From Desulfurococcus sp. (GTDB lineage: Archaea; Thermoproteota; Thermoprotei_A; Sulfolobales; Desulfurococcaceae), in NCBI GenBank assembly GCA_026626905.1, contig JAPNUX010000008.1:62001-126000 (forward strand): DNA of 64,000 nucleotides, written 5' to 3'. The translations under genes were made by a program, and so were the position numbers. The first letter of the stretch is position 1. Each line of letters opens with the position of its first letter. The notes beneath the pieces are model-generated. The model did no database searches. It was not told the origin of the DNA and saw nothing but the letters and a program-made list of their open reading frames with translations. Below, in pieces: positions 57,494 to 58,407 of the stretch.

Positions 57494-57991
57494 CTACTCA
57501 AAAACTATCCGGGTTTTAACACCGAGTAGTGTTGACAATAGGTTCTCGTACTCTTCTCTACTCTTCTCTAGTATTCTTCGATCCCTCCTAGAGATCCTCA
57601 CGTTGAGTATCTCCGTGCCTCCAGGTAGCCAGACCTGGTTGACTCCTATTAGAGATGCAGGTGCTATCAGCTGCTCTATTAATCGCTTAGAGTCTCCCGC
57701 TTCAACAACTACTTTAACCCTCGTATTAAGAGCCTGAGATAACTCTCTTTCAAGCTCATCTATCTACTCAGGCTCGAAGCCATCTCTGATCATCACTATC
57801 AAGCGGTCCCTCAACCTGTAAGTTTTAGAGTAGCTCCCCTTCCTCAAGAACTTCAACTTCTCTTCTAAATCCATGAGCACTCTCATAACTGGTATCTCAT
57901 CCTCTCTAACCACGCCTTCCTCAACCTTCCTCTGGCAGCTCGGGCAGAGCACGCCGCTTTTAACGCATATCCTATCCAGCGGGTACTTCAA
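57494..57991 (-). pseudogene. Zinc/KH-like RNA-binding protein gene with one in-frame TAG
   Basis: Codons 1-75 read MKYPLDRICVKSGVLCPSCQ with three Cys, then RLRDRLIVMIRDGFEPE, and stop at TAG 57764-57766. The same frame continues for 89 codons (IDELERELSQALNTRVKVVV, GVNQVWLPGGTEILNVRIS, LLGVKTRIVFE) to a second TAG at 57494. The whole 165-codon frame looks like one conserved archaeal protein with a Cys-rich head and a KH-like NusA-type tail. No start codon follows the TAG closely. It may be a nonsense mutation, a sequencing error or read-through. TTG start with GGTGATG upstream. Confidence 0.7.
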
Positions 57992-58188
57992 GGCTTCATC
58001 ATCACCGCTGCATAGTTCTCCATGCTGTAAAACACCAATATCATACTAGAGTTTCCTAAACTCCCTTTAAATATAGCGTTTAAGTTTAAGCCTAGTACTA
58101 CCCGGAAAGACTTTATAACTCCCTTAGCTTATGTGATAAAAATGAATGACTGGTAGTGGGCCCGTAGCTCAGCCAGGCAGAGCGGCGG

Positions 58189-58208
58189 ACGCCGTAGAGG
58201 CGGCCGAT
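58189..58208 (+). other. tRNA-Trp intron 1 (position 30/31)
   Basis: 20 nt. Bulge-helix-bulge: exon CGGC pairs with intron GCCG (4 bp), bulges GG/A and AU/G, inner hairpin CGCC-GUAGA-GGCG. The outer helix GAG/CUC is short (3 bp), so this is a relaxed motif that may be cut after intron 2 removal or need the crenarchaeal heterotetrameric endonuclease. Confidence 0.8.
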
Positions 58209-58215
58209 GCTCCAG

Positions 58216-58267
58216 ATCTCTACGGGTCGGAGTGACCATCCCGGGATGACTGTGATCTGGAGGAGCG
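58216..58267 (+). other. tRNA-Trp intron 2 (position 37/38)
   Basis: 52 nt. Exon CUCC pairs with intron GGAG next to the 3' junction (4 bp), bulges AG/A and CG/A, outer helix GCGGG/CCCGC formed with the anticodon stem. A competing 9-bp pairing CTCCAGATC/GATCTGGAG is also possible. Confidence 0.85.
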
Positions 58268-58407
58268 ACCCGCAGGCCGGGGGTTCGAATCCCCTCGGGC
58301 CCACTACTATCCTTCTTAATACACAATGATATCAAGATTAAACTAGTATGCTACTTTAAACATGGATTCTACAATAATATTTAAAGCCTAATAATACCAG
58401 GTATAGG

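Follow-up and report, generated by a model that had tools for sequence, protein, structure and literature searches.

Archaeal NusA is described in general terms as an RNA-binding protein of unclear function in the available part of PMC8116511, and the structure cited there is that of the paralogue 2CXC, not NusA2. Two PDB entries bear the name NusA2 in their titles, 9f9u from Saccharolobus solfataricus and 9fjl from Sulfolobus acidocaldarius; a literature search on these two structures found no paper. Belinky et al. (2021, PMC7918605), in the available sections, interpret in-frame stops of prokaryotic genes as readthrough where dN/dS is below 1. For S. solfataricus, the accessible portion of PMC8211752 reports that some interrupted genes are functional; it also relates how an apparent interruption of aIF1 proved to be full length on resequencing.

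The assembly considered here (G000) comprises 1,272,001 bases in 8 contigs and is 99.92% complete. The window, i.e. the whole 64-kb stretch of DNA that was analysed, corresponds to C8:62001-126000 and carries, on its minus strand, a gene of 166 codons, present as a single copy in G000, with a stop codon near its middle. The features of this gene are as follows:

57494..57991, minus strand: NusA2-like gene with a zinc-ribbon-like N-terminus and a NusA-like KH fold; it begins with TTG, ends with TAG and is interrupted at codon 76
57764..57766, minus strand: in-frame TAG at codon 76, a sense codon in 29 of 29 aligned homologues (Glu in 19)
57767..57991, minus strand: codons 1-75, N-terminal half, with Cys9, Cys16 and Cys19 invariant in 29 homologues
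57497..57763, minus strand: codons 77-165, C-terminal half, with a KH_5-like segment (residues 83-118) below the Pfam gathering score
57494..57496, minus strand: terminal stop TAG of NusA2, the next in-frame stop being a TGA three codons later

A recheck of 57991-57494 on the minus strand gave the same coordinates, strand, frame and codon number for the internal TAG as an earlier note made from the letters of the window. The same note had described a frame continuous across the TAG and the absence of a nearby restart, and both descriptions stand: the matches of relatives span the stop position with no indel there, 89 sense codons follow the TAG in an unbroken frame, and the earliest in-frame ATG, GTG or TTG behind it is codon 131. 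No repeats of at least 14 bases were found within the gene.

The protein encoded by the interrupted gene is archaeal NusA2, which makes the previous "zinc/KH-like" label an accurate one, as judged from profile, PDB and structure matches. The NCBIfam profile NF005013 ("transcription elongation factor NusA-like protein") aligns residues 1-164 with positions 1-165 of 166 (E 1.9e-43). With X at the stop, the protein scores 148 bits, under the cut-off of 175, and the shortfall is not caused by the stop, because the intact congener protein is likewise under the cut-off (155). In phmmer searches with codon 76 written as X, the window protein matched 9f9u with an E-value of 7.2e-30 (residues 1-162) and 9fjl with one of 6.8e-28. 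The protein modelled was that of the congener (mean pLDDT 92.4); residues 1-165 of this model matched 9fjl and 9f9u with Foldseek TMq values of 0.90 and 0.89 and VIA Z scores of 21.5 and 21.0, respectively. Pfam KH_5 gave 20.1 bits, below the gathering score of 27 (23.8 for the congener), and was matched by 28 of 31 relatives at E up to 1. Codon 76 corresponds to residue 3 of a helix spanning residues 74-88 in the congener model, so a product truncated there would be without the C-terminal half.

The same searches returned a second, more distant likeness. Below NusA2 itself, the Foldseek matches of the congener model at ranks 3-50 are all ribosomes or pre-ribosomal particles by title, and the chains that recur in sequence searches carry the name eS7. 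VIA alignments with eS7 gave Z scores of 10.7-11.8 over 133-148 aligned residues (rmsd 4.1-5.4), most of them spanning residues 1-165. A profile built from 31 NusA2 sequences matched eS7 in the PDB with an E-value of 2.4e-6, about as strongly as it matched NusA1 (2cxc, 1.1e-5), and Pfam S7e (PF01251) matched 16 of the 31 members individually with E no higher than 1, the best at 3.6e-7. At the same threshold, S7e matched neither the window protein alone nor the congener protein alone, and the S7e profile had no match in G000. In both fold and profile, archaeal NusA2 thus looks like a relative of eS7, a ribosomal protein of eukaryotes, over most of its length. A limited whole-word literature search found no paper joining eS7 and archaeal NusA. 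This likeness bears on the origin of a eukaryotic ribosomal protein and could prove of greater value than the stop codon itself.

The NusA2 gene was found in 55 of the 61 genomes searched, and in 44 of the 45 good genomes (this one included). A stop inside the match occurs in this genome only and in none of the other 54 that have the gene. The earlier note had asked for an alignment of homologues; in the 29 loci returned, out of these 54 genomes, the column at codon 76 holds a sense residue throughout, mostly Glu (19), with Ile in four, Ala in three, and Ser, Val and Leu in one each. This mixture indicates a position that tolerates several residues. The codon is GAA in one of the two congeners (G001 and G002) and GAG in the other, and GAG becomes TAG in one step, by a G to T change on the coding strand. 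A second collection, the GTDB r220 contigs, provided 47 relatives that are partly the same genomes as in the first set; none of their 47 loci has a stop within the NusA2 match, although one match falls short of this column. No second assembly of this species was present among the 47 relatives (at most 57% identity to the congener query; near records may be omitted). The internal stop is thus confined to one of 55 genomes with the gene, whereas conserved readthrough calls for at least two.

The codons after the stop remain those of a protein, as proposed previously. Their dN/dS is 0.071 relative to G001 and 0.084 relative to G002, synonymous differences being close to saturation, so the open frame past the TAG is not due to chance. 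Residue changes specific to this genome number 4 in 75 columns before the TAG and 2 in 89 after it; those specific to the two congeners number 3 and 4 before the position and 3 and 6 after it. The downstream half is as constrained as the upstream half, and decay is not visible. Purifying selection on the downstream half is evident from these values, but dN/dS is measured here between species, so it mostly predates the stop. As the distances cover the whole time since the species split, they point to a recent stop, a false one or one that is read through, with no choice among the three on these grounds.

The NusA2 lesion is not alone, which was invisible from the window by itself. The 1,173 ORFs of G001 were compared with 708,538 of the 1,272,001 bases (56%) of this genome; 510 had a match at 50% identity or more, and 26 of these ran into at least one stop in the DNA of this genome. 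Four of the 26 were kept by eye as mid-gene interruptions and 22 were dropped as N-terminal extensions, match ends, or antisense- or non-coding-looking ORFs. Borderline among the latter are an AbrB/PhoU-like gene (TAG at G001 codon 10, opposite Glu) and a 2-oxoacid oxidoreductase beta-like gene (TAG at codon 3), both of which may start downstream. Four conserved genes thus have one internal stop each, TAG in NusA2 and Nob1 and TAA in a PAPS-reductase-like and a CYTH-like gene; the three beyond NusA2, found in 56% of the genome, are new here. Their positions, with that of a frameshifted gene, are:

C8:129972-130463 (L042:9972-10463): Nob1-like PIN/zinc-ribbon nuclease with an internal TAG; GAG in G001, G002 and G019
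C8:43810-45741 (L038:3810-5741): PAPS-reductase-domain protein with one internal TAA; Ala in three relatives
C4, about 81575-82213: CYTH-like gene (named by eye) with an early TAA
C5:50105-51503: symporter-like gene, frameshifted at a T5 run

The Nob1-like gene matches Pfam PIN_6, the name Nob1 being our own assignment. It is present in 40 of 41 genomes (this one included), in one copy here, and lies about 10 kb from NusA2 in this genome and in G001, G002, G007, G019 and others. Two distant, weak Nob1-like matches, in G044 and G048, also meet stops. Past the stop, the gene has no changes specific to this genome in 109 columns, as against 2 and 5 in the congeners. The available part of PMC8339473 links archaeal Nob1, in vitro, to maturation of the 16S 3' end. 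Full-length orthologues of the PAPS-reductase-like gene elsewhere are without a stop, and four weak partial matches do have stops. Past its own stop, this gene has 9 changes specific to this genome in 192 columns (7 and 3 in the congeners), so that there may be some relaxation; the branch of this genome is long throughout, with 1059 unique changes versus 621 and 571 in the congeners. The symporter-like gene is the one clear frameshift counted, from the one frameshift row inspected out of six. In the reverse comparison, 30 of 507 proteins of this genome meet stops in G001 DNA, as raw rows of which one was inspected for stops and two for frameshifts; most are unclassified, so the stop rates of the two genomes are not comparable. 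G001 seems to hold a broken NucS-like gene (named by eye), with a TAG, partly aligned in one frame and matched by C4:9193-9996 of this genome.

The tRNA complement was surveyed in the whole genome. Rfam gave 44 tRNA matches, to each of which ARAGORN assigns an anticodon; CUA, UUA and UCA are absent from these 44, on assignments by a program that can misread intron-bearing genes. ARAGORN adds two tRNA genes, a tRNA-Cys and a spliced tRNA-Trp beside NusA2:

58158-58304, plus strand: tRNA-Trp CCA gene beside NusA2, with two introns of 20 and 52 nt placed by eye

The same tRNA gene adjoins NusA2 in both congeners, and all three, once spliced, read as tRNA-Trp CCA; unspliced, they are misread by ARAGORN as agc, ctg and agt in the window and the two congeners. 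Two ARAGORN calls of tRNA-Tyr were considered as a possible natural UAG suppressor and rejected, because one is tRNA-Tyr GUA and the other, read by eye, has GUG and is a tRNA-His; G001 has counterparts of both genes. No internal stop was seen in aRF1.

Several explanations can be given for an internal TAG at a position where relatives have an amino acid. That the TAG is itself read as one, by amber reassignment or as pyrrolysine, fits its alignment with a residue and is the least probable of all. Within 708,538 bases of G000, the 473 genes supported by homology end with TAG in 204 cases, TAA in 154 and TGA in 115, TAG is the commonest stop in the window (35 of 73 ORFs), and NusA2 itself ends with it; these counts speak against genome-wide reassignment, and TAG is not reassigned in this genome. 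Of the four options listed in the earlier note (recent nonsense mutation, sequencing error, readthrough and amber recoding), the last is thereby left without support, whereas the remark made there that pyrrolysine use is unlikely agrees with the absence of a PylS match above the cut-off from this genome (30.8 bits against 178.15; 13 of 14 control genomes likewise give matches, one of them above the cut-off) and with the lack of a CUA anticodon among the tRNAs found. The possibility of two genes, or of a family naturally ending at codon 76, is also very remote: no point in its favour was found, the other 54 genomes are all without a stop in the match, homologues ending here were found in neither collection, no start codon precedes codon 131, and the stop would fall at the third residue of a helix. 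Readthrough by a near-cognate tRNA at UAG and the other internal stops, yielding enough full-length protein at a lowered dosage, is a more serious proposal but an unlikely one. It would accommodate the low downstream dN/dS and the presence of a TAG in two single-copy, nearly universal and otherwise intact genes, but with the stop confined to one genome, selection after its origin is not measurable, and the internal stops include TAA besides TAG. Folding of three of the four stop contexts gave no structure better than shuffled sequences (z -0.66, 0.03 and -0.23). No tandem-stop enrichment was found behind TAG in the 473 genes, the median distance to the next in-frame stop being 9 codons after TAG, 9 after TAA and 8 after TGA; a suppressor tRNA was not found among the tRNA genes and aRF1 is without an internal stop. 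A more specific version, with context-dependent readthrough of UAG and UAA without a dedicated suppressor tRNA, and with NusA2 and Nob1, about 10 kb apart, both made at reduced dosage through UAG at a conserved Glu, is more doubtful still.

The company of three other genes with single stops favours base errors in the assembly or very recent nonsense mutations. NusA2 and Nob1 are both single-copy and nearly universal, with one stop each and otherwise undamaged, which makes old pseudogenes hard to accept. A real and very recent nonsense mutation, shortening NusA2 in the sequenced strain to its first 75 codons, with the KH half gone and decay not begun, is a tentative alternative, supported by the one-step change from GAG, the absence of any further lesion, the constrained downstream codons and the other interrupted genes in this genome, and apparently also in G001. 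It would, however, remove a single-copy gene present in 44 of 45 good genomes, and the same must hold for Nob1 (40 of 41) with its implied part in 16S maturation; two losses without decay need both to be extremely recent. We favour, at about even chances, a consensus base error or minor-variant base in the assembly: a functional NusA2 gene would show, in one assembly, a single-base nonsense change from Glu GAG to TAG, the base at codon 76 being probably wrong or unfixed, and the living population would mostly retain a sense codon and make full-length NusA2. Base errors or a minor variant account for all cases at once; recent real mutations come next, and readthrough is less likely. The nonsense share of single substitutions in 81 such genes is 4.4%, which, with four stops, corresponds by estimate to roughly 90 wrong bases in the sample, or about 2-3 such errors in every 10 kb of coding sequence by our own estimate. 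Against base error, stops outnumber clear frameshifts in the assembly, which is not the usual long-read error profile, and G001 seems to hold a broken gene too. A G-to-T damage signature is not clear on the branch of this genome: at first and second codon positions, the share of G-to-T changes is mildly raised (4.2% versus 2.8% and 2.0%), and so are those of some other transversions.

Real stops would mean that two thermophile genes, both single-copy and nearly universal, depend on UAG readthrough or are newly lost, and the locus would then offer a clean natural experiment on stop suppression in this lineage of archaea. If the stops are false, the estimated error rate given above would apply to the assembly, and its apparent pseudogenes are not to be taken at face value.

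Among described systems, the in-frame stops covered in the available sections of PMC7918605 resemble that of NusA2 in being single, in an intact frame and with purifying selection downstream, but they occur in two or more genomes, and this one in a single assembly. The archaeal recoding dealt with in the accessible portion of PMC8211752 (Sec, Pyl and -1 frameshifting) does not fit the NusA2 stop, whereas the interrupted archaeal genes described there are alike, each a conserved thermophile gene with one interruption. The window protein matches the NusA2 of 9fjl and 9f9u through both halves, and its gene differs from theirs in the in-frame TAG at codon 76.
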